Part shown: positions 13,834 to 34,315 of the stretch, piece by piece
How the letters are laid out: each line of letters opens with the position of its first letter
Position numbering within the stretch: position 1 is the first letter of the stretch
DNA from: Uliginosibacterium gangwonense DSM 18521
GTDB lineage: Bacteria > Pseudomonadota > Gammaproteobacteria > Burkholderiales > Rhodocyclaceae
Assembly (NCBI RefSeq): GCF_000373965.1
Contig: NZ_KB892848.1
Coordinates: forward strand, 127-34,441
Reading direction: 5' to 3'
DNA: 34,315 nucleotides
Position numbers and translations under genes: made by a program
Notes under the pieces: model-generated
What the model was told of the DNA's origin: nothing
Seen by the model: the letters and a program-made list of their open reading frames with translations, nothing else
Database searches by the model: none

Positions 13834-14199
13834 CTATTCCTCTGGAATTGTTGGATCTGCCACGATGGAATTTTCGGCGCGGGTTTTCTGGTCGCGGTAG
13901 CGTTCAATCGTACTTTCGAGCATGCGCAACAGCTTGCTGACTGCGCCTTCAATAGCTTGGTGCAAGTTGGCGGCATGATGCGTCACCACAACCGGTTGGT
14001 GGTGTTCGAGGTGAGCCTCCATCACGCAACGCTTGTCGTTGTCACCCCCCTTGCGACCGGTTTCCTCACTCAGGTGAACTTCAATACGCGTGATGTGGCT
14101 GCGTAGATGATCAAGGGTATGTTCAACCACACTTTGCACGTGGTTGCTCAGCCCTTCACTGCCTTCGATGTTGTGGTCAGTATTGATCTGGATTCGCAT
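13834..14199 (-). CDS. HPF/RaiA-type ribosome hibernation factor inserted in the ATPase operon
   Basis: This 121-residue protein has the S30AE fold sequence pattern: an N-terminal strand MRIQINTDHNIEG, then THITRIEVHLSEE-like (SHITRIEVHLSEE), the basic RCVMEAHLEHHQPVVVTHHA, and a long helix NLHQAIEGAVSKLLRMLEST. Such proteins bind the 30S decoding site and silence ribosomes in stationary phase or stress. A strong AAGGAGT precedes ATG 14199. It is 45 bases after atpA and 4 bases before atpG on the same strand, so it must be co-transcribed with the ATPase. The canonical N-ATPase gene order, atpDCQRBEFAG, has no such gene. Whether it acts on ribosomes generally or in connection with ATPase activity is unknown. 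Confidence 0.85.
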   Translation of the reverse strand: MRIQINTDHNIEGSEGLSNHVQSVVEHTLDHLRSHITRIEVHLSEETGRKGGDNDKRCVMEAHLEHHQPVVVTHHAANLHQAIEGAVSKLLRMLESTIERYRDQKTRAENSIVADPTIPEE

Positions 14200-14244
14200 G
14201 TGTTACTCCTTGTGCGGTGGGGTTGGTCGCGGCCTGACAGGGGT

Positions 14245-15828
14245 TTAGCTGGCATCAGATGTAGCCGTGACGGGCTTGTCCAGGCTGGCGACTTGGGCGC
14301 CTGCCTGGAATGCGGCGATGGCCTGACGAGCCATGGCGATGATGCTGGTACGATCTGCCTCGCTAAGCTCGTTGGCTGTGTCTAGGCGCTTATGCAGTTC
14401 AGTGGGTAGCTTCAGGGCTGCTTCACTGACCGCCCACTCGGCTGCTGGCATATTTTCAAGCGGCACTTCGTCAAACAGCTTGGTGCTCAATGCCAGCAAT
14501 ACGCTGATCTGGGCCGCTACCGCGACGGGAGCGGATTCCGGCTGCTTGAGGCAGGCGCGAATGCGTTGGCCATGCTTGATGATCTTTAACGTGTTGTCGT
14601 CAAGCCGGGCACCAAATCGCGCAAAGGTCTCCAGTTCTTCGAACTGAGCATGGGCCAGCTTGAGATCGCCGGCTACGGCGCGGAAAGCCGCGCGCTGGGC
14701 CTTGCCACCCACACGGGAAACCGATTGGCCGACATCCACAGCCGGTAGCACGCCGAGTTCGAACAGTGATGGCGACAGGTAAATCTGACCATCGGTGATC
14801 GAGATCAGATTGGTTGGGATGTAGGCCGACATATTTTGCGCTTCGGTCTCTATGACGGGCAGGGCGGTGAGTGAGCCGCCCCCCAGTTCTGCACGCAAGT
14901 GCGTGGCACGTTCCAGCAGGCGCGAATGGATATAAAAGATGTCGCCGGGGAAGGCTTCGCGACCCGGTGGCCGACGCAATAGCAAGGACAGTTCGCGGTA
15001 CGCGCGGGCATGTTGGGTGAGATCGTCATACACAATCAATACATCGCGTCCGGCTTCCATGAAATATTCGGCGATACTGGTCGCTGCATACGGGGCGATG
15101 TAGGCCAGCCCGGGTGGGGCATTGCCTTCGGCGACCACCACCACCGTGTAGGCCAGCGCACCTTTCTCACGCAGATTAGCCACAGACTTTGCTACCATTG
15201 AAGCACGCTGGCCGATTGCACAGTAGACGCATATGACATTGTTGTCGCGTTGATTGAGAATGGTGTCAATGGCAATCGCGGTCTTTCCTGTTTGGCGATC
15301 ACCGAGGATCAGCTCGCGCTGTCCTCGTCCGATGGGAATCAGCGCATCGATGACCTTGACACCGGTTTGCAGCGGTACGCTGACCGGGGCACGGTCCATG
15401 ATCGCAGTGGCGGGGCGTTCGATGGGCAGGCGCCCGCTGGTGGCGACTGGGCCCTTGCCGTCGAGTGGGCGTCCCAGGGCATCAATGACACGACCAAGTA
15501 GCGCCTCGCCTACGCCAACATCCAGAACGTGGCCCGTACGTTGGACTTCATCTCCGGCTTGCAGCGCGGTGTAGTCACCAAGCAAGACAACTCCGATGTC
15601 ATCTTCATCCACATTGAAGGCAATCCCGAATACGCCGTTGCGGAATTTCACCAGCTCGTCAAAACCGATTCCAGGCAAACCCGCCACATGCGCAATGCCG
15701 GTGGCAACCTCGGTAATGCTGCCAATCTCTTGGAGCGTGAGCTGTGGGACAAAACCTTCGCGTGCCTCACCCAGGTGAGTGAAGCTGCGTTCGAAAACCG
15801 CCGCGAGGCTGTCAAATGGTTTGCTCAT
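14245..15828 (-). CDS. atpA: N-ATPase alpha subunit
   Basis: This 527-residue protein is the non-catalytic nucleotide-binding subunit of the F1 head. The P-loop [15 protein letters not shown] lies near residues 175-190. [20 protein letters not shown] is the Walker-B region, and [12 protein letters not shown] with [13 protein letters not shown] are the conserved alpha-family segments. It resembles the N-ATPase branch, with a distinctive N-terminus ([20 protein letters not shown]). Its ATG overlaps the atpF stop as ATGA, which implies coupled translation. Confidence 0.95.
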
Positions 15829-27450: not shown

Positions 27451-28464
27451 ATGGCAATGGATCGTTTTCAAGCAATGCAGGTGTTCGTGCGGGTAGTGGA
27501 CGCCAGCAGCTTTTCGCGGGCTGCAGACAGTTTGGGTATGCCCAGAACGACGGTGACCATCATCATCCAGCAGCTTGAGGCCACTTTGCAGGTACGTCTG
27601 CTTAACCGAACCACCCGTCGCATCAGCCTGACGCCGGATGGTGCCGCGTACTATGAACATTGCATCCGAATTCTCGGCGAGGTTGAGGAGACCGAAGCAT
27701 CTTTCCGCGATGCAGCTAAAGGCCCGAGCGGGCGTCTACGTGTTGATGTGCCTTCGATCATTGGGCGACAGATCCTGATTCCCAAATTGTATAATTTTCA
27801 CGAGAGGTATCCGGAAGTAGAACTCGCAATCGGGATGAGTGATCGGCATGTCGATCTGGTCAGCGAAGCGGTGGATTGTGTGATACGTGGCGGCGAATTG
27901 GCAGACTCTACTTTGGTTGCCAGGCGCATCGCCAGTTTCAAAGTGATTACCTGTGCAGCACCCAAATATCTGGAGTGCCATGGAGTCCCCACGTGCATTG
28001 AGGATCTGGCGCATCATGTGGCGGTGAATTATTTCTCCAGCCGCACTGGCCGCATCATCGACTGGGATTTCGTGGTTGACGGCCAGACGGTGCCCGTGAA
28101 GATGAAAAGCATGGTTTCCGTTAACGATGGCGAGGCTTATGTTGAATGTGCGCTTCAGGGAATTGGGCTGACTCAGGTAGCGCGCTTTATGGCACATAAA
28201 TACCTGGAGTCCGGGAAGCTTATTGAAGTGCTGCCGCAATTATCCCCTTCGCCGATTCCTATCTCGGTTGCATATCTGCAAAACCGACATCTTTCACCCA
28301 AGGTACGTGCCTTTGTCGATTGGGTGTCCGAACTTTTCAGCTCTTGTCCTTTACTCAGTGGCGTCGACGTACGCTCCGACGGTTGCTCCGCGCTTCCTCT
28401 CCAATCCCCAACTAATACACTGCGTCAGGAGATCGATCAGATGAACAGTATCGGCGCTCTCTAG
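27451..28464 (+). CDS. LysR-family transcriptional regulator, divergent from the efflux operon
   Basis: This 337-residue regulator has an N-terminal winged helix-turn-helix (FVRVVDASSFSRAADSLGMP then RTTVTIIIQQLEATLQVRLL, NRTTRRISLTPDG) and a type-2 periplasmic-binding-like effector domain (residues about 90-295). It belongs to the DhcR/CrgA-like subgroup by pattern. The C-terminal 35 residues (from about GVDVRSDGCSALPL) exceed the usual length of about 300. AGGA lies seven bases before ATG 27451. Position opposite the hydrolase-RND operon suggests that it regulates that operon, as CeoR and BpeT do for theirs; this is inference from synteny. Confidence 0.92.
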   Translation: MAMDRFQAMQVFVRVVDASSFSRAADSLGMPRTTVTIIIQQLEATLQVRLLNRTTRRISLTPDGAAYYEHCIRILGEVEETEASFRDAAKGPSGRLRVDVPSIIGRQILIPKLYNFHERYPEVELAIGMSDRHVDLVSEAVDCVIRGGELADSTLVARRIASFKVITCAAPKYLECHGVPTCIEDLAHHVAVNYFSSRTGRIIDWDFVVDGQTVPVKMKSMVSVNDGEAYVECALQGIGLTQVARFMAHKYLESGKLIEVLPQLSPSPIPISVAYLQNRHLSPKVRAFVDWVSELFSSCPLLSGVDVRSDGCSALPLQSPTNTLRQEIDQMNSIGAL

Positions 28465-28605
28465 GAACCTATTCATAACCTTCCTGTGAGACGGTGATCG
28501 GGGCTTATGCGCTACACGAAGTTGTCATTGAGCGATCATACGTTCATACTCTTCCAGGCTGCGATGTCTTGTGTAGATTGACGGACCGGGATAGATTAGA
28601 CCTCA

Positions 28606-29114
28606 CTATTTTCCAATTGGATTTCTCTCTACAGGTGGATTGGCAGCAGGTTTTCCACGATCCAAACCCAATCGTAGTAGCGTGTGTTGTTCAGATGATT
28701 CCCGCCAATCCGCACAAAATTAGGCAATGACTCCAATTGAACGCAAAGCTGTGCGCTCAGATCGGCTACTAACACCGACGATTCGTTCTTGGAAGGTTTG
28801 CGTCTGCCAATCGGCCTGGCCTGTCATCGGGTCCCGAAATAATTTACGCAGGTGGCGTACAGGGTTGGGAAAGCGTTTATCCTCAAGCAAATCAGCTAAA
28901 TTCGCAGGTATATCAGGCTGACCTGCAGGGGACAGGCGACGATAGCTCTCCAGCGCCGCGCTGAATTGACGGCCTATATCAAGAAGCTGGGTTTCTTTCT
29001 CACGCTGTGTATTGAGATGCCAAATCTGTCCCAGGCCCGCTAATGGAGCCCCATCGCGGCCAGTGCAAAGATGAGCACCAAATAGCCAAATCCACGCTCT
29101 CGTTGAAGTCTCAT
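28606..29114 (-). pseudogene. Third pseudopilin gene, broken by frameshift
   Basis: ATG 29114 directly follows the stop of the preceding pseudopilin (TAGATGAG). It reads MRLQRERGFGYLVLIFALAA then MGLH and a TAG at 29040-29042. In another frame coding continues at once: AGLGQIWHLNTQREKETQLL, then LLEDKRFPNPVRHLRKLFRD and PMTGQADWQTQTFQERIVGV, to TAA at 28720. One base restored near 29043 joins the halves (MGL-x-LAGLGQIW). This is a type II secretion-like pseudopilin of the kind lacking the usual Glu5. Beyond 28720, two frames carry possible tail sequence (NNTRYYDW and KPAANPPVERNPIGK, the latter ending at 28606), so further shifts are likely. It may be real decay or a sequencing error. Confidence 0.65.
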
Positions 29115-29528
29115 CTACAGCTCATTCAAAGGCGTGCCATCTTGCGTATTGCCTTCTGCACCGCTATGCACATCATAGACCCCCGTCCCGTCCTCAGGAG
29201 AAGGCATGGCCGCCCAGCTTTGGGCCGAGTCTGTATAGGGGTCTTTGGGGATTGAGCGTAAATAATGCTGCGCGACCAGATCATCAAGACTGTCGGGCAG
29301 CTGGTTGCGATCAGCCTGAAACTTATCAATAGCATCGCGCATGGTAGCAAGGCTTTGGCGAAGGCTGTTCTCCTTGGCGCGCTCAACATGGTTGAAGTAA
29401 CGAGGTGCCGCAATCGAAACCAGCAATGCAACAATGCTCATCACCACCAGCAATTCAACAAGCGTGAAACCTATTGAACGTGCTTTATTCTGTCCACGAG
29501 ATTGATGAAGACAAATCAAATTTTCCAC
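29115..29528 (-). CDS. Type II secretion-like pseudopilin (second of three)
   Basis: This 137-residue protein has a prepilin peptidase site: SIGFTLVELLVVMSIVALLV, with Gly before Phe1 and Glu5. The long hydrophobic alpha-helix continues as SIAAPRYFNHVERAKENSLR. The globular part contains RDAIDKFQADRNQLPDSLDD and IPKDPYTDSAQSW, as in GspG-like major pseudopilins. The annotated GTG start at 29528 gives a 19-residue basic leader; its ribosome site is poor. It lies 51 bases after the first pseudopilin and abuts the broken third. Such proteins polymerise into a short periplasmic pilus after cleavage by a PilD-type peptidase; no secretion ATPase or secretin gene is in this window. Confidence 0.85.
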   Translation of the reverse strand: MENLICLHQSRGQNKARSIGFTLVELLVVMSIVALLVSIAAPRYFNHVERAKENSLRQSLATMRDAIDKFQADRNQLPDSLDDLVAQHYLRSIPKDPYTDSAQSWAAMPSPEDGTGVYDVHSGAEGNTQDGTPLNEL

Positions 29529-29579
29529 CTGGTTGGTTCAGATAACGTACAGAACAGCAATTGCCCCTTGCTACCATGC

Positions 29580-30068
29580 TTACCATTCTTTGAACGAAAC
29601 ACCGTTCAGCCCGCACTTCTCAGAGAGTGAGAATACATCAAACACATCCTGCCCCGCCTGCGGGTTGTCTGGCGGGCTTGCATAACTGCGCAGTCCCCAG
29701 GTCTGAGCAGCAGGCGCGGTGGTATCCGGGTACATCGGATCACGAGGCAAGCGCCGTAAAAGGTAGATCATGTTTTTGTCTGGAAGCGTTTGATCTGGTA
29801 CGCCATGAACCAACTCGTCCAAAGAATGAGGATAGCCCGAGTCCCCCACCTTCTTTTCAATTCGGCCCGTGTCGGAATATTCTTTATACGTATCGATTGC
29901 ATTGCGGATTTGCCGCAGTGCAAGACGCAACTCGGATTCCCGTGAGCGCTGCTCAACAATATGCACAATCGGAAACGCAGCTGACGCGAGGATTCCGACG
30001 ACCGTGACGACAACGACAATCTCGATCAGCGTGAAACCTGTGATTCTTCTCAAACGGTGATGACGCAT
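29580..30068 (-). CDS. Type II secretion-like pseudopilin (first of three)
   Basis: This 162-residue protein has leader MRHHRLRRITG followed by FTLIEIVVVVTVVGILASAA, a textbook class III (type IV pilin-like) signal with Glu5. The stalk helix carries EQRSRESELRLALRQIRNAI, followed by DTYKEYSDTG. The C-terminal region ends with RDPMYPDTTAPAAQTWGLRS and DVFDVFSLSEKCGLNG, similar to GspG/H-type pseudopilins. It is the first gene of a three-gene minus-strand set. The divergent cytochrome gene starts 410 bases away. Confidence 0.88.
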   Translation of the reverse strand: MRHHRLRRITGFTLIEIVVVVTVVGILASAAFPIVHIVEQRSRESELRLALRQIRNAIDTYKEYSDTGRIEKKVGDSGYPHSLDELVHGVPDQTLPDKNMIYLLRRLPRDPMYPDTTAPAAQTWGLRSYASPPDNPQAGQDVFDVFSLSEKCGLNGVSFKEW

Positions 30069-30478
30069 ATGGAAAGCACCAATATAGTGCAGTAAGACAG
30101 TGGAGAATTTTCAAGAAACGGATAAATCATAACCGGTTGAACCGCAAAACGTCAGATAACATACGCTATTTGCCCATCAAATATCTAACGACATGGTTTT
30201 ATGACGAACGGCGTTTACTGTCTAGTGCTTTGATTTTCAACAAAGTGTTTTAGAAAATCGAGTAAGTATTCTGGTTTGTAGTTGAGTCTGTCAGAAAAAT
30301 ATCAGGTCAAAATTTGCAGGCAATCTGTACAATTCTTGCGCTTTCGCCGACTGTTTTGAGAAATAATGCCCGTTTCAGCTTGGTCATAATCCTTATGGCA
30401 CAAGGATTCGAGGGTTCATATTTGAAACAGTGGGGAAAACCTAAAAAGAATATTCGCAATTGAATCCGGGGATGTATT
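30069..30478. other. AT-rich intergenic region between pseudopilin and cytochrome genes
   Basis: I see no credible gene in these 410 bases; the 84-codon minus-strand frame ending at 30307 has no recognisable content. The region should hold divergent promoters, but I cannot assign one with confidence. AACCGGTT near 30131 is a small palindrome. Its last 36 bases (30443-30478) resemble the leader of the repeat-protein gene at 31879-31915. Base composition is clearly more AT-rich than in 1-29000. Confidence 0.6.
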
Positions 30479-31516
30479 GTGCAGTCGCAGCTTGCTATTG
30501 TTTGCTTGAGACGGTTTGTGTTGTTGCTGACAGCGTGGGGCTTAAATGCACTATCTCCCATTTTTGCATCTACAGTCAGTCATCCATTGACAGATGGGAA
30601 AGCATATAGCGCTGTCTTGGCACAAGGCCAAAATGGCGCTTACAGCTTTGCAGGTTCGATCGGACAACGTTTAGGCTTGGGCTTGAGCAATTTGAGTACC
30701 ACGCCGTCGGGAGGTAACGTATCCGTCCAAGTAATTGGGCCAGACAACAATACAGTACTTGCAAATTGTGGGACATTCTACCACTCAAACAGTGGCGGCC
30801 GCTGCAATCTGCCTGTTTTCCCTGCCAATGGCACTTATACGGTTCATGTTCAGCCTGCGACGGGCTATACGGCCAGTTTCAATGTCATCTTATCGAGCGA
30901 TGTGGCCAAACTGATTACTCTCTCTGTCAAGACGGCAATCATGGGTTATCGCTCTACGGACGATTTATTGCATGCGCGCATGATAGCGGAAACAATTTGT
31001 GCAGGTTGTCATGGTCAGGAGGGGAGCGGTGCTGTCTCAACAATACCCAAAATTGCTGGACAGAATAGAACCTATATATATAAACAGCTCCATGATATTA
31101 AAGCTCAAAACGGTCAGCCACCTGCTCGCGTAGTCGCTCCCATGCTTCCGTTTCTAGTCAGTCTTTCCGATTCAGATTTCAAAGCTTTGGCAGGTTATTA
31201 CTCTGAAAAGATCTTAATCCCAGAAAAGTCAAAGCTCCTCCAAACCTTTGATCTCGGCCAACGTATCTGGCAAGCAGGAGACAAGGACAGGAATATACCT
31301 GCCTGCGCTGGTTGTCACGGACTTAACGGTCAGGGGAGGGCCCCCTTGCGTCCTCGCCTTCAGGGGCAGTTTGCTGACTACATAGCAAATACGCTGAATG
31401 CCTTTAAAACAGACAGTAGGACGAATGATCTTTCTGGAGCAATGCAAGCCATTACGAAACGCATGACCCAGGACGAAATCGAGTCGGTAGCAGGCTATGT
31501 GGCAGGGTTGTACTGA
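30479..31516 (+). CDS. Dihaem cytochrome c (c4-like) with extra N-terminal beta domain
   Basis: This 345-residue exported protein has a signal peptide (RRFVLLLTAWGLNALSPIFA, cut near residue 30). Residues 31-141 form a beta-rich domain (LAQGQNGAYSFAGSIGQRLG, NGTYTVHVQP) with no haem site. This matches the 107-residue repeat of the gene at 31916. The C-terminal 185 residues contain two CAGCH haem motifs (174-178 and 276-280) spaced as in cytochrome c4, with candidate Met ligands (APMLPF, SGAMQAI). Such proteins transfer electrons in the periplasm or at the cell surface. The start is GTG 30479; a nearby ATG is out of frame. The domain fusion ties it to its neighbour; its electron partners are unknown. 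Confidence 0.88.
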   Translation: MQSQLAIVCLRRFVLLLTAWGLNALSPIFASTVSHPLTDGKAYSAVLAQGQNGAYSFAGSIGQRLGLGLSNLSTTPSGGNVSVQVIGPDNNTVLANCGTFYHSNSGGRCNLPVFPANGTYTVHVQPATGYTASFNVILSSDVAKLITLSVKTAIMGYRSTDDLLHARMIAETICAGCHGQEGSGAVSTIPKIAGQNRTYIYKQLHDIKAQNGQPPARVVAPMLPFLVSLSDSDFKALAGYYSEKILIPEKSKLLQTFDLGQRIWQAGDKDRNIPACAGCHGLNGQGRAPLRPRLQGQFADYIANTLNAFKTDSRTNDLSGAMQAITKRMTQDEIESVAGYVAGLY

Positions 31517-31569
31517 GGCCTGAGAAGTCGGGCCGGCACATTACAAAAACGTATGGAGGGTCTTTAGTC

Positions 31570-31717
31570 ATGGTTGCGGATGCATACTTTTTCTTGGTCG
31601 AACTGATTCGCCTGGGCTATGCCGAGATCCAACCTTTAGGAAGGGGCAGACTATGACGTGTATTCGGAGCAGCTTTCAGATGAACGGTATGTGGTCTACT
31701 ATTTTGTTGATTTTTAA
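31570..31717 (+). pseudogene. Very short ORF with frameshifted continuation (unrecognised)
   Basis: ATG 31570 (GGAGGG nine bases or more upstream) opens 28 codons, MVADAYFFLVELIRLGYAEI then QPLGRGRL. One frame over, coding-like sequence continues as DYDVYSEQLSDERYVVYYFV to a TAA at 31715-31717. A single frameshift would give a protein of about 50 residues. I do not recognise it. The rest of 31517-31915 holds no other gene that I can support. Confidence 0.25.
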
Positions 31718-31751
31718 AAGAATATTAAAAGCAAAACGTACGGATTCGTGA

Positions 31752-31793
31752 GGCCTGTAAGAAATGTCTGATTGAATGTTTCTGAAACAGGCC
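31752..31793. other. Stem-loop in the cytochrome to repeat-protein gap
   Basis: GGCCTGT (31752-31758) pairs with ACAGGCC (31787-31793), with a second short pairing AGAAA/TTTCT inside. No T-run follows, so it is not a standard terminator. Its role is unknown. Confidence 0.3.
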
Positions 31794-31915
31794 GTTACAA
31801 TCCCTGCCCAGAATGGGTATGCCAGGCCTATCTATGATCCAAAGTTGGCTGTTGTGGTCATTGGATTGGCTTAATACCAAAAACGAATAATCACGAATTG
31901 AAATCGGGGGCGGCT

Positions 31916-34315
31916 GTGCAGCAACGTTCATTGTGTGTCCGTTGTATTCGATATTTGTTGCTGTTGGCTGCAGCTCTATCACTATCAAAAATTGTTTTTG
32001 CTAGCGTTCAGTATTCTTATGACGCTGCGGGCAGACTCGTAGAAGTCATACCTGTATCCGGGGTTCCATTTGAATATGGTTATGATGCGGCTGGTAACAT
32101 TACCGCCATCAATAACGCATCTTCTTCCAGTTTGACTGTTACAGACTTTGAGCCAGCAGCCGGGCCTGTCGGGACCAGCGTGACGCTGACAGGGAGCGGA
32201 TTCAATACCACGGCAGCCCAAAATACGGTGACTTTCAATGGGGTGGCTGCTGCCGTTGTGAGTGCCAGCACGAGCAGCCTAGTTGTCACGGTTCCAAAGG
32301 GAGCGACAACAGGCTTAATTGCCGTACAAAACAGTCTCGGTACTGTGCAAACCGCAAGCAATTTTGTCGTCGGGCCTGCAACAGCTTCAGGTGGTTCCTC
32401 TATTTCCGTGCAGCTTGCTGCAAACCAAAGCCAAATCTTTACATTCACGGGTTCGACAGGGCAAGGGCTTACCTTGGTGCTGTCAGATTTGGTCGTTGCC
32501 TCAGGTGTATCGGTTAATGCTTCTATCAGCCAAAGTAGCGGCAGTGTTTTGGCTACATGCACAATCGCCGCTGCTCAGCCAGCATGCTCCTTACCCTACC
32601 TACCTGCGTCAGGTGTTTATCAAATAACCTTGAGTGCAACTTCAGCGGCTTCTTTTTATGCCAAATTGGTTGCTGATGTAAATGGTACTCTTTCTTTGGG
32701 CGGATCGGTTAAGTTCAGTTCCGCTATTGCATATCAAGCCGGAAGCTATGTCTTTACCGCAAGTCAGGGGCAAAGTCCTAATTTGTTAGTAAGCTCGGAT
32801 TTATTGCAGAGTTCAACTCTTGTCAATGTGTATAAGCCAGATGGCTCCTTGTTGAAATCAATCACTTTGCCATATGCATCAGGCTCTAGTAGTTTTTCTT
32901 CACTCATTCTCAGTAATTTGCCTTCAACCGGTGATTACACTATCCGTGTACAGCCATTGGGTGGGGCGATAGGTAATATTAGTTTGGGCTTGCCAACAGA
33001 TGTGACAGGCGTTTTGGTAATAGGAACCCCATTGGTTGCTAAGTTGGCGGCAGCGCAGAATGCTACGTATACATTCACCGCTCAATCGGGGCAGAACCTC
33101 AATTTAGCGCTCACGGACGATTTGCTTGTCGGTACAATTTCGGTTTCTGTATATAAACCAGACGGCACTACGCTCAGTTCGACTAATTTGTCATATTCAA
33201 GTGGGGTTGGGACTGCGACAGCACTTGCGCTCAGAGGGGTGCCTGCAACAGGTACCTATACTGTACGGATTCAACATAGCGCACCATCCGCAGGTAGTGT
33301 CAGTTTGAATTTGCAAGCTGACGTTGCTGGTGTCTTGACGGTGGGCGTTCCTGTTACAGCTAGTCTGGCCAATGGGCAGAATGCGACCTATACCTTTACC
33401 GCGTCCTCAGGGCAGGATTTTGGTTTGGCGCTAACAGGAGATACGCTGGTTGGAACTACGAATGTATATGTCTATGCGCCAGATGGCTCCTTGGTGAATT
33501 CTCAAGGCATCTCCTATACATCTGGCAACGGTAGTACGTCAGCACTATCGTTGAGTAAATTACCTCAAACAGGTACCTATGTGGTGTCTGTGCAACATGG
33601 TGCAGGGGCTGCCGGAAGCATTACATTGACATTGCAGGCGGATGTTTCAGGAAGCCTGACAGTAGGTTCGCCCGTTACACTCAATTTGGCCGCAGGGCAA
33701 AATGCGGCGTATACGTTCAACGGGACGGTAGGACAAAATCTCGGTTTGGATATCGCTGGCGATACTTTGGTGGGTAATACCGCAATCTATGTCTACAAAC
33801 CAGATGGCAGTTTGTTGTCGTCAAACAGTTTGTCCTACAGTTCCGGTAATGGGTCTTCGACTGCGATTGCATTGAACAATTTGCCTACTACGGGCACATA
33901 TCTCCTGCGCGTAAAACCAGGTGGTGGTGTAGCAGGTAGCATCATTGTGGGTCTTCAGTCGGATTTGACAGGGGTACTCGCGATAGGGACTCCGGTTGCG
34001 TTGAATTTTGCTGCTGGGCAAAACGCCACCTACACCTTCAATGGAACGGCGGGACAGAATCTTGGATTGGGCTTGAGTGGAGATACGTTGGTTGGTCCGA
34101 CGAGTATCTACATCTATAAGCCAGATGGCACACAGTTAAATTCGGTAAGCCTGTCCTATAGTTCCGGCGCAGCTACCTCAACAGCATTGGTTTTGAATGC
34201 TTTGCCGGTCAATGGCACTTACAAGATTCGTGTCCAGCCAAACGGCGGGCTTGCTGGTGCTCTTACGCTGGGACTGCAGGCCGATTTGACAGGAACCCTC
34301 ACCGCAGGCACACCG
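31916..34315 (+). CDS. Large exported repeat protein: YD repeats, TIG-like domain, 107-residue beta repeats (3' end outside window)
   Basis: GTG 31916 opens an 800-codon frame without a stop that runs off the window. A signal peptide (CIRYLLLLAAALSLSKIVFA, cut after residue 29) is followed by two YD/Rhs-type repeats (YSYDAAGRLVEV at 33 and YGYDAAGNITAI at 54). A TIG/IPT-like domain follows at residues 74-152 (FEPAAGPVGTSVTLTGSGFN). After a divergent unit, near-identical 107-residue beta units start at residues 258, 366, 473, 580, 687 and 794. Each has the pattern GQNATYTF...GQNLGL...GDTLVG...VYKPDGS...LPxTGTYxxRV...LQADLTG. The start context and repeat domain match the cytochrome gene upstream. 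It is probably a secreted or surface protein that may continue into Rhs repeats; its function is unknown. Confidence 0.88.
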   Translation, partial: MQQRSLCVRCIRYLLLLAAALSLSKIVFASVQYSYDAAGRLVEVIPVSGVPFEYGYDAAGNITAINNASSSSLTVTDFEPAAGPVGTSVTLTGSGFNTTAAQNTVTFNGVAAAVVSASTSSLVVTVPKGATTGLIAVQNSLGTVQTASNFVVGPATASGGSSISVQLAANQSQIFTFTGSTGQGLTLVLSDLVVASGVSVNASISQSSGSVLATCTIAAAQPACSLPYLPASGVYQITLSATSAASFYAKLVADVNGTLSLGGSVKFSSAIAYQAGSYVFTASQGQSPNLLVSSDLLQSSTLVNVYKPDGSLLKSITLPYASGSSSFSSLILSNLPSTGDYTIRVQPLGGAIGNISLGLPTDVTGVLVIGTPLVAKLAAAQNATYTFTAQSGQNLNLALTDDLLVGTISVSVYKPDGTTLSSTNLSYSSGVGTATALALRGVPATGTYTVRIQHSAPSAGSVSLNLQADVAGVLTVGVPVTASLANGQNATYTFTASSGQDFGLALTGDTLVGTTNVYVYAPDGSLVNSQGISYTSGNGSTSALSLSKLPQTGTYVVSVQHGAGAAGSITLTLQADVSGSLTVGSPVTLNLAAGQNAAYTFNGTVGQNLGLDIAGDTLVGNTAIYVYKPDGSLLSSNSLSYSSGNGSSTAIALNNLPTTGTYLLRVKPGGGVAGSIIVGLQSDLTGVLAIGTPVALNFAAGQNATYTFNGTAGQNLGLGLSGDTLVGPTSIYIYKPDGTQLNSVSLSYSSGAATSTALVLNALPVNGTYKIRVQPNGGLAGALTLGLQADLTGTLTAGTP
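32687..34315 (+). repeat. Tandem 321-base repeat array encoding beta-sandwich units
   Basis: Unit starts are at 32687, 33011, 33332, 33653, 33974 and 34295. The first step is 324 bases and the following four are exactly 321, so every unit is in frame (108 or 107 residues). The last unit is cut by the window end. Units share the GQNATYTF and KPDG blocks but differ at many codons, so the array is old enough to have diverged or is under gene conversion. The units resemble bacterial pre-peptidase C-terminal (PPC)-like beta domains by pattern only. Confidence 0.9.

Follow-up and report, generated by a model that had tools for sequence, protein, structure and literature searches.

The stretch of DNA analysed here (the window, 34,315 nucleotides) covers positions 127-34441 of contig C15 (NZ_KB892848.1) in the draft genome of Uliginosibacterium gangwonense DSM 18521, an assembly of 5.02 Mb in 35 contigs. 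Its end carries two genes transcribed in the same direction. The first codes for a fusion protein of 345 amino acids (aa), in which a signal-like start is followed by one PPC domain and by two cytochrome c domains forming a complete di-haem cytochrome c4. The second codes for a repeat exoprotein in which a signal-like start, a YD/RHS repeat and TIG precede six complete PPC units and the beginning of one more. Both open reading frames (ORFs) lie where an earlier reading of the sequence alone (the original prediction) had placed them, and the 107-residue length of the repeat unit agrees with it as well. The contig stops 107 bases past the window end, too soon to give the whole repeat protein. 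No RNA families or tRNAs were found in the window, and promoter and terminator scans stayed at chance level.

Table 1. Features at the end of the window (window coordinates).
Feature	Position	Strand	Basis
PPC-cytochrome c4 fusion, 345 aa	30479..31516	+	Pfam PPC and two Cytochrom_C matches; PDB cytochrome c4 1etp, 8uf3, 8smr
Signal-peptide-like region, fusion residues 1-30	30479..30568	+	resembles that of the paralogous C19 repeat protein; cleavage site judged by eye
A-type PPC domain, fusion residues about 37-150, cysteines 97 and 109	30587..30928	+	Pfam, alignment, BLASTP, AlphaFold model
First haem motif CAGCH, residues 174-178	30998..31012	+	motif scan
Second haem motif CAGCH, residues 276-280	31304..31318	+	motif scan
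YD/RHS-TIG-PPC repeat exoprotein, N-terminal 806 aa	31898..34315	+	ORF and Pfam; open at window end, cut by contig end
First PPC unit of repeat protein, cysteine-bearing (A-like), residues 157-259	32366..32674	+	unit alignment
B-type PPC units, five of 107 residues each, with another starting behind them	32675..34279	+	unit alignment
Pseudopilin 1	29580..30068	-	81% identity to C19 copy
Pseudopilin 2	29115..29528	-	72% identity to C19 copy
Pseudopilin 3 remnant, match in more than one reading frame	28648..29099	-	57% by tblastn (residues 22-156 of 161), further pieces read in different frames

A PPC domain shared with the exoprotein family

The N-terminal domain of the cytochrome is the known Pfam domain PPC (pre-peptidase C-terminal, PF04151), the same beta domain as in the exoprotein family next door. 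The PPC profile scores 99.1 bits in the repeat protein; in the cytochrome it scores 22.8 bits (E 1.7e-4) when the whole protein is searched, where the cut-off is 25.9, and 26.2 bits in the genome search. The common pattern that the original prediction had seen in cytochrome residues 31-141 and the neighbour's repeat units is borne out by BLASTP, in which residues 31-150 match the repeat protein at 49.7 bits (E 3e-12, 36% identity). None of 300 shuffled versions of the cytochrome domain reached the real score against any of three repeat-protein pieces, and profile-profile comparison of the two types of repeat unit described below, A and B, gave a probability of 98.9% (E 2e-17).

The profile and structure check that had been suggested for the two proteins thus found PPC in both, and two AlphaFold models agree on the fold. 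The model of the fusion (mean pLDDT 84.3) has eight PPC strands at residues 42-139, a weak linker with pLDDT under 50 at residues 150-157, and the helices of c4. The repeat-unit model (pLDDT 92.8) likewise shows eight strands, similarly spaced, and in addition a short one ahead of them; the two strand lists were compared by eye. In Foldseek searches the PPC structure 5sv5 is the best match of the repeat-unit model and stands at rank 14 for the fusion model, behind cytochromes and three other beta proteins. A PPC beta-sandwich is predicted for both proteins on these models, and an undescribed domain is ruled out by the Pfam match and the Foldseek match to 5sv5. PPC usually occurs at the C-terminus of secreted peptidases. 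The present domain resembles PF04151 (5sv5; KP-43 protease, 1wmd) in Pfam match and fold; it differs in being N-terminal on a cytochrome and in a cysteine pair conserved among aligned A-type units.

Further repeat-protein pieces are located at three other contig ends of the same genome: the start and the end of contig C19 and the start of C14. The C19-end and C14-start pieces alternate units of type A, with the cysteine pair, and type B. The cytochrome domain belongs to type A. Its best match is the first unit of the C19 repeat protein (59% identity, 138 bits), and fusion residues 8-153, signal region included, match C19:23549-23977, the start of that protein, at 51%. The adjacent repeats, to which the original prediction had likened the domain, do share it, but their match (36%, 50 bits) is far below that of the paralogous C19 head unit, and they are rejected as its source. 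Upstream DNA of the fusion and of the C19 repeat gene gave no convincing alignment that would point to a shared promoter, and the alignment of the linker with a fossil signal peptide was likewise unconvincing. No remnants of a repeat gene were found on either side of the cytochrome by tblastn or blastn.

The haem half and its relatives

The haem half matches cytochrome c4 in both domains, by sequence (E about 2e-27) and by structure (Foldseek TM 0.82-0.89, by target length). The two class-I c domains each carry a CxxCH, both intact in the fusion. Met222 and Met322, which we take to be the distal haem ligands as in c4, sit in conserved Met columns of a 23-row alignment. The fusion therefore shares with known c4 proteins (1etp, 8uf3, 6q2u, 8smr) both haem domains and the two motifs, and is set apart from them by its N-terminal PPC, its membership of a specialised, fast-evolving clade and its setting in an exoprotein island. 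In the usual c4 layout the signal peptide directly precedes the haem domains; in the fusion, PPC intervenes. That such a fusion is unusual for c4 had been anticipated, and no match to PPC, pseudopilin 1 or RHS was found in any of 80 named c4 loci (tblastn E 1e-6; the best 80 of the matches listed, three of them from UBA1310).

C19 holds a second di-haem cytochrome, without PPC and 65% identical to the fused haem half. Another c4 is encoded on contig C4, adjoining genes that resemble engB and hemB (names given by eye). In a 24-sequence tree, the fused cytochrome, its C19 counterpart and two copies of Rhodocyclaceae bacterium UBA1310, a genus mate with an 89% complete genome (G003 in our set), form one clade with 100/100 support. 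Five c4 proteins of the genus join this specialised clade with 83/90 support, which is below the usual mark; the C4 protein falls elsewhere. The stem branch of the specialised clade is 0.78, and the end branch of the fused copy is 0.49 vs 0.13. Across 13 other c4s, 68 columns hardly vary; 21 of them are changed in the fused copy, 15 in the C19 copy and 14 in the copy on UBA1310 contig C81. The other UBA1310 copy (contig C69, L061:1-1671) is truncated, has an internal stop and lies downstream of a 261-aa ORF without a Pfam match.

Low-GC stretches occupy about 28000-34315 of the window, C19:19939-25879 and C14:1-3344, with a GC content at third codon positions (GC3) of about 0.40-0.56, vs 0.6-0.74 for many host genes. 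GC3 is 0.40-0.47 for both the fused and the C19 cytochromes and for three of the four repeat pieces; it is 0.66 for the C19-start piece, within the 0.61-0.74 of many host genes. Since the UBA1310 C81 copy has a GC3 of 0.71-0.72, low GC is no mark of the specialised cytochrome clade.

The secretion-like operon and the distribution of the parts

C19 carries gspG, gspF, gspE, a PilN-like gene, a GspM-like gene and a secretin gene (gsp genes at C19:5179-13357), an operon resembling a type II secretion system (T2SS) and located between exoprotein genes. The pseudopilins of this genome are separate from the gsp genes and form inverted trios beside the cytochromes on C15 and C19; their usual place is beside the secretin. 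GspG, F, E, D and pseudopilins form one gene run in the genomes G019 and G007; the G012 locus was left out of this comparison. For the pseudopilin 3 remnant of the window, decay and assembly error are indistinguishable from the present data. Another set of T2SS-like genes of this type lies at L127 (contig C2:116001-136000 of the same genome); there pseudopilins 1 and 3 are divergent from the remaining genes.

At E 1e-25 or better, pseudopilin 1 is present in 142/399 genomes of the order, counting our own; at E 1e-20, 16 of 24 relatives from the genus and family have it. From the 142 genomes 33 neighbourhoods were taken: one own (L127), one of genome G339 and 31 others. Pseudopilins 1 and 2 and the secretin match in all 31 other loci, pseudopilin 3 in 28 of them. 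The original prediction had seen in the cytochrome, the repeat protein and the pseudopilins a candidate for an undescribed system. This is not supported, the domain being Pfam PPC, the pseudopilins belonging to a widespread T2SS-like operon and the fusion not recurring in the samples.

RHS/YD exoproteins stand beside T2SS-like operons in our own loci, in G019 (a transglutaminase-RHS gene divergent from the operon), in G339 and, as RHS matches, in two of the 31 further loci, L114 and L121; in G007 the giant secreted genes by the operon are of other make-up, with transglutaminase and other domains and no RHS match. What distinguishes the present proteins is the A-type unit, found in PPC proteins of our own genome, G339 and G794 only, among the samples searched. 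These samples (order, relatives and family) overlap. The A-type PPC profile matched 2/399 genomes of the order (own and G339; E 1e-14), 2/316 of the family (own and G794; E 1e-8, with our own genome as the positive) and none of the 24 relatives (E 1e-6), a set without a positive genome; a contig scan with A-type units and one peptide pattern found no relative.

Two further genes were noted. A secreted-looking protein of 197/198 aa ("DUF197"; L035:4939-5532, L033:2748-3344), the 197-aa form of which has no Pfam match, occurs in 2/399 genomes; its gene lies upstream of the RHS gene on C14 and in G102, and upstream of the cytochrome on C19. A GH44-CBM2 gene lies near the secretion genes of C19 (L035:2263-4299).

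In G794, which belongs to another genus of the family, contig C72 carries a di-haem gene of the CCP/MauG family (PF03150, E 3.5e-44; L256:12531-13745), located 155 bases upstream and on the same strand of a gene for a YD-TIG-TIG-PPC protein (13901-15427) cut by the contig end. The CCP/MauG-family protein has no detectable kinship with the c4 fusion (22 bits, E 0.02). G339, where A-type units occur beside RHS genes, had no di-haem ORF in the stretch examined.

Export, docking and other explanations

We favour, tentatively and at rather less than an even chance, the view that a duplicated c4 gene in an exoprotein island captured the signal-plus-head unit of an exoprotein and became a probably exported, surface-docked cytochrome. 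The c4 gene would have been duplicated, most likely within the genus, and the copy would have come to lie among giant exoprotein genes (RHS/YD, TIG and PPC repeats) and a T2SS-like system. There it would have gained, from an exoprotein gene, the signal peptide and the initial A-type PPC unit. The product would be exported by Sec, loaded with haem and passed through the secretin by the same machinery as the exoproteins; PPC would then dock it at the surface, where electrons could be passed on. The sequence establishes the shared domain, a similarity that continues into the signal part, membership of the c4 clade and intact haem motifs, and the fusion is seen near a T2SS-like operon and the presumed cargo of that operon.

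T2SS has been implicated in carrying the folded cytochromes MtrC and OmcA to the surface of Shewanella (PMC1974784) and in the export of cargo fused to outer-membrane cytochromes (PMC6929479). The route proposed here, a folded haem protein crossing the outer membrane by T2SS, is that of MtrC/OmcA; these are decahaem and membrane-anchored, whereas the fusion would have two haems, shows no lipobox by eye and is only presumed to be exported. PPC repeats are described in PMC3236237 as relevant to localisation, activity or stability and as present in the Myxococcus matrix. A targeting or docking role of the PPC domain is an economical guess.

An MtrAB-like conduit is a candidate surface partner, as a lead only. 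Contig C35 has an MtrB/PioB match (E 2e-110) beside an ORF with 10 CxxCH (L249:8806-12077), taken as MtrA-like by haem count and place; no second ORF of comparable haem number was found within 20 kb. A 7-CxxCH ORF (L249:16236-17195) and a gene resembling cytochrome b561, by eye, also lie nearby. According to PMC8805035, MtrAB forms a core that can take on further cytochromes.

Several observations weigh against the favoured view. No T2SS signal could be read from the sequence, the N-terminus being signal-like only; to our knowledge, T2SS substrates have no simple readable export motif. C15, C19 and C14 may be consecutive and broken within the repeats, an order that rests on repeat types, the contigs not being joined in the assembly. 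The plain C19 copy lacks PPC, so a c4 in the island needs none. MtrB gave no match in UBA1310, which has specialised c4, and is present in G002, which lacks the fusion. The PPC part was covered in our own genome only, 1 of 41 (own and 40 relatives; fusion query, E 1e-40), and so was the fusion match at E 1e-46 (1/369 of the class). Beside the secretion operon, an RHS match was found in just 2, and an ORF with two CxxCH in none, of the 31 other loci; the latter was a plain frame scan, which recovers 79 of the 80 c4 loci. Finally, of 195 positions, 37 are changed uniquely in the fused haem half and 11 in the C19 copy (outgroup UBA1310 C81; chi-square 14.1). A conserved cytochrome-pseudopilin system is rejected for the loci examined. 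On the test of co-occurrence in other genomes that had been suggested, the fusion itself fails, as it did not recur in the samples; the looser di-haem/YD-TIG-PPC pairing was met once, in G794. The locus is not a new conserved system; it is a real and rare fusion of known parts, probably functional. Among the titles and abstracts listed in full-text searches on PPC-cytochrome-secretion, RHS-T2SS and c4 fusions, none reports such a fusion or locus, with subscription journals mostly outside the coverage.

The protein may instead be an ordinary periplasmic c4, which still shuttles electrons between bc1 and the oxidases and carries PPC incidentally as a spacer or stabiliser. Cytochromes c4 belong to the periplasm, the haem half falls within c4 both in sequence and in fold and retains both CxxCH, and a low-confidence linker connects the two parts. 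On the other hand, the genome retains another c4 on C4, and the long stem of the specialised clade, together with its shared departures from near-invariant c4 positions, suggests another job. On balance we regard this explanation as somewhat unlikely.

That recombination in a shuffled island of repeats produced the fusion as a by-product, which now drifts with no selected role, is unlikely too, though this stays a live rival. The single genome with the fusion among the samples, the excess of unique changes and the longer end branch of the fused copy all suit this reading, as do the broken pseudopilin 3 next door and the truncated UBA1310 C69 copy. Yet 345 codons have stayed open, with both haem motifs and the PPC core retained, and both parts are confidently folded in the model. 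Between the fusion and its C19 counterparts, nonsynonymous differences per site (pN 0.22 for the haem half, 0.24 for PPC) are far below synonymous ones (pS 0.78 and 0.84, saturated), a history partly older than the fusion in both halves. Since pN is far below pS and the changes number 37 vs 11, both halves have been under constraint, with the fused copy the faster. Such acceleration of the haem half fits relaxed selection and a new role alike.

The pairing in G794 allows a broader and more doubtful proposal: exported YD-TIG-PPC surface proteins may have enlisted di-haem c-type proteins on more than one occasion, the T2SS-like exporter and these proteins making up an extracellular redox module with the PPC head as a docking or export tag. 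Since G794 is the single further case, chance may account for the pairing.

The haem protein might also act on the exoprotein itself, as a redox partner in its oxidative maturation or cross-linking outside the cell. MauG oxidises a protein substrate, and the CCP/MauG-family gene of G794 precedes an exoprotein of the same design. This is a single instance, c4 is a carrier and not a peroxidase, and the two haem proteins show no detectable kinship. We regard the idea as very improbable.

An extracellular electron donor for lytic polysaccharide monooxygenases (LPMOs), suggested by the nearby GH44-CBM2 gene and by Cellvibrio Cbp2D, in which cytochrome domains are coupled to a carbohydrate-binding module and whose X183 reduces LPMOs (PMC8981238), is largely refuted and was rejected, as LPMO_10 matched none of eight genomes (own and seven of the genus) while the positive control, Lactococcus lactis, was matched. 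Cbp2D and Cbp2E of C. japonicus, as presented in the same paper, resemble the fusion in combining redox domains with a non-redox beta module in one secreted protein, secretion being presumed for the fusion; theirs are CBM2, YceI-like, X183 and X132 with a proposed LPMO action, in contrast to PPC and c4 without an LPMO match.

The genome offers a natural experiment, in which nearly the same cytochrome is present with and without an exoprotein head unit. Should the fused copy be found outside the cell and the plain copy not, PPC head units would be export or docking tags, and surface cytochromes may have escaped notice through their resemblance to periplasmic c4.

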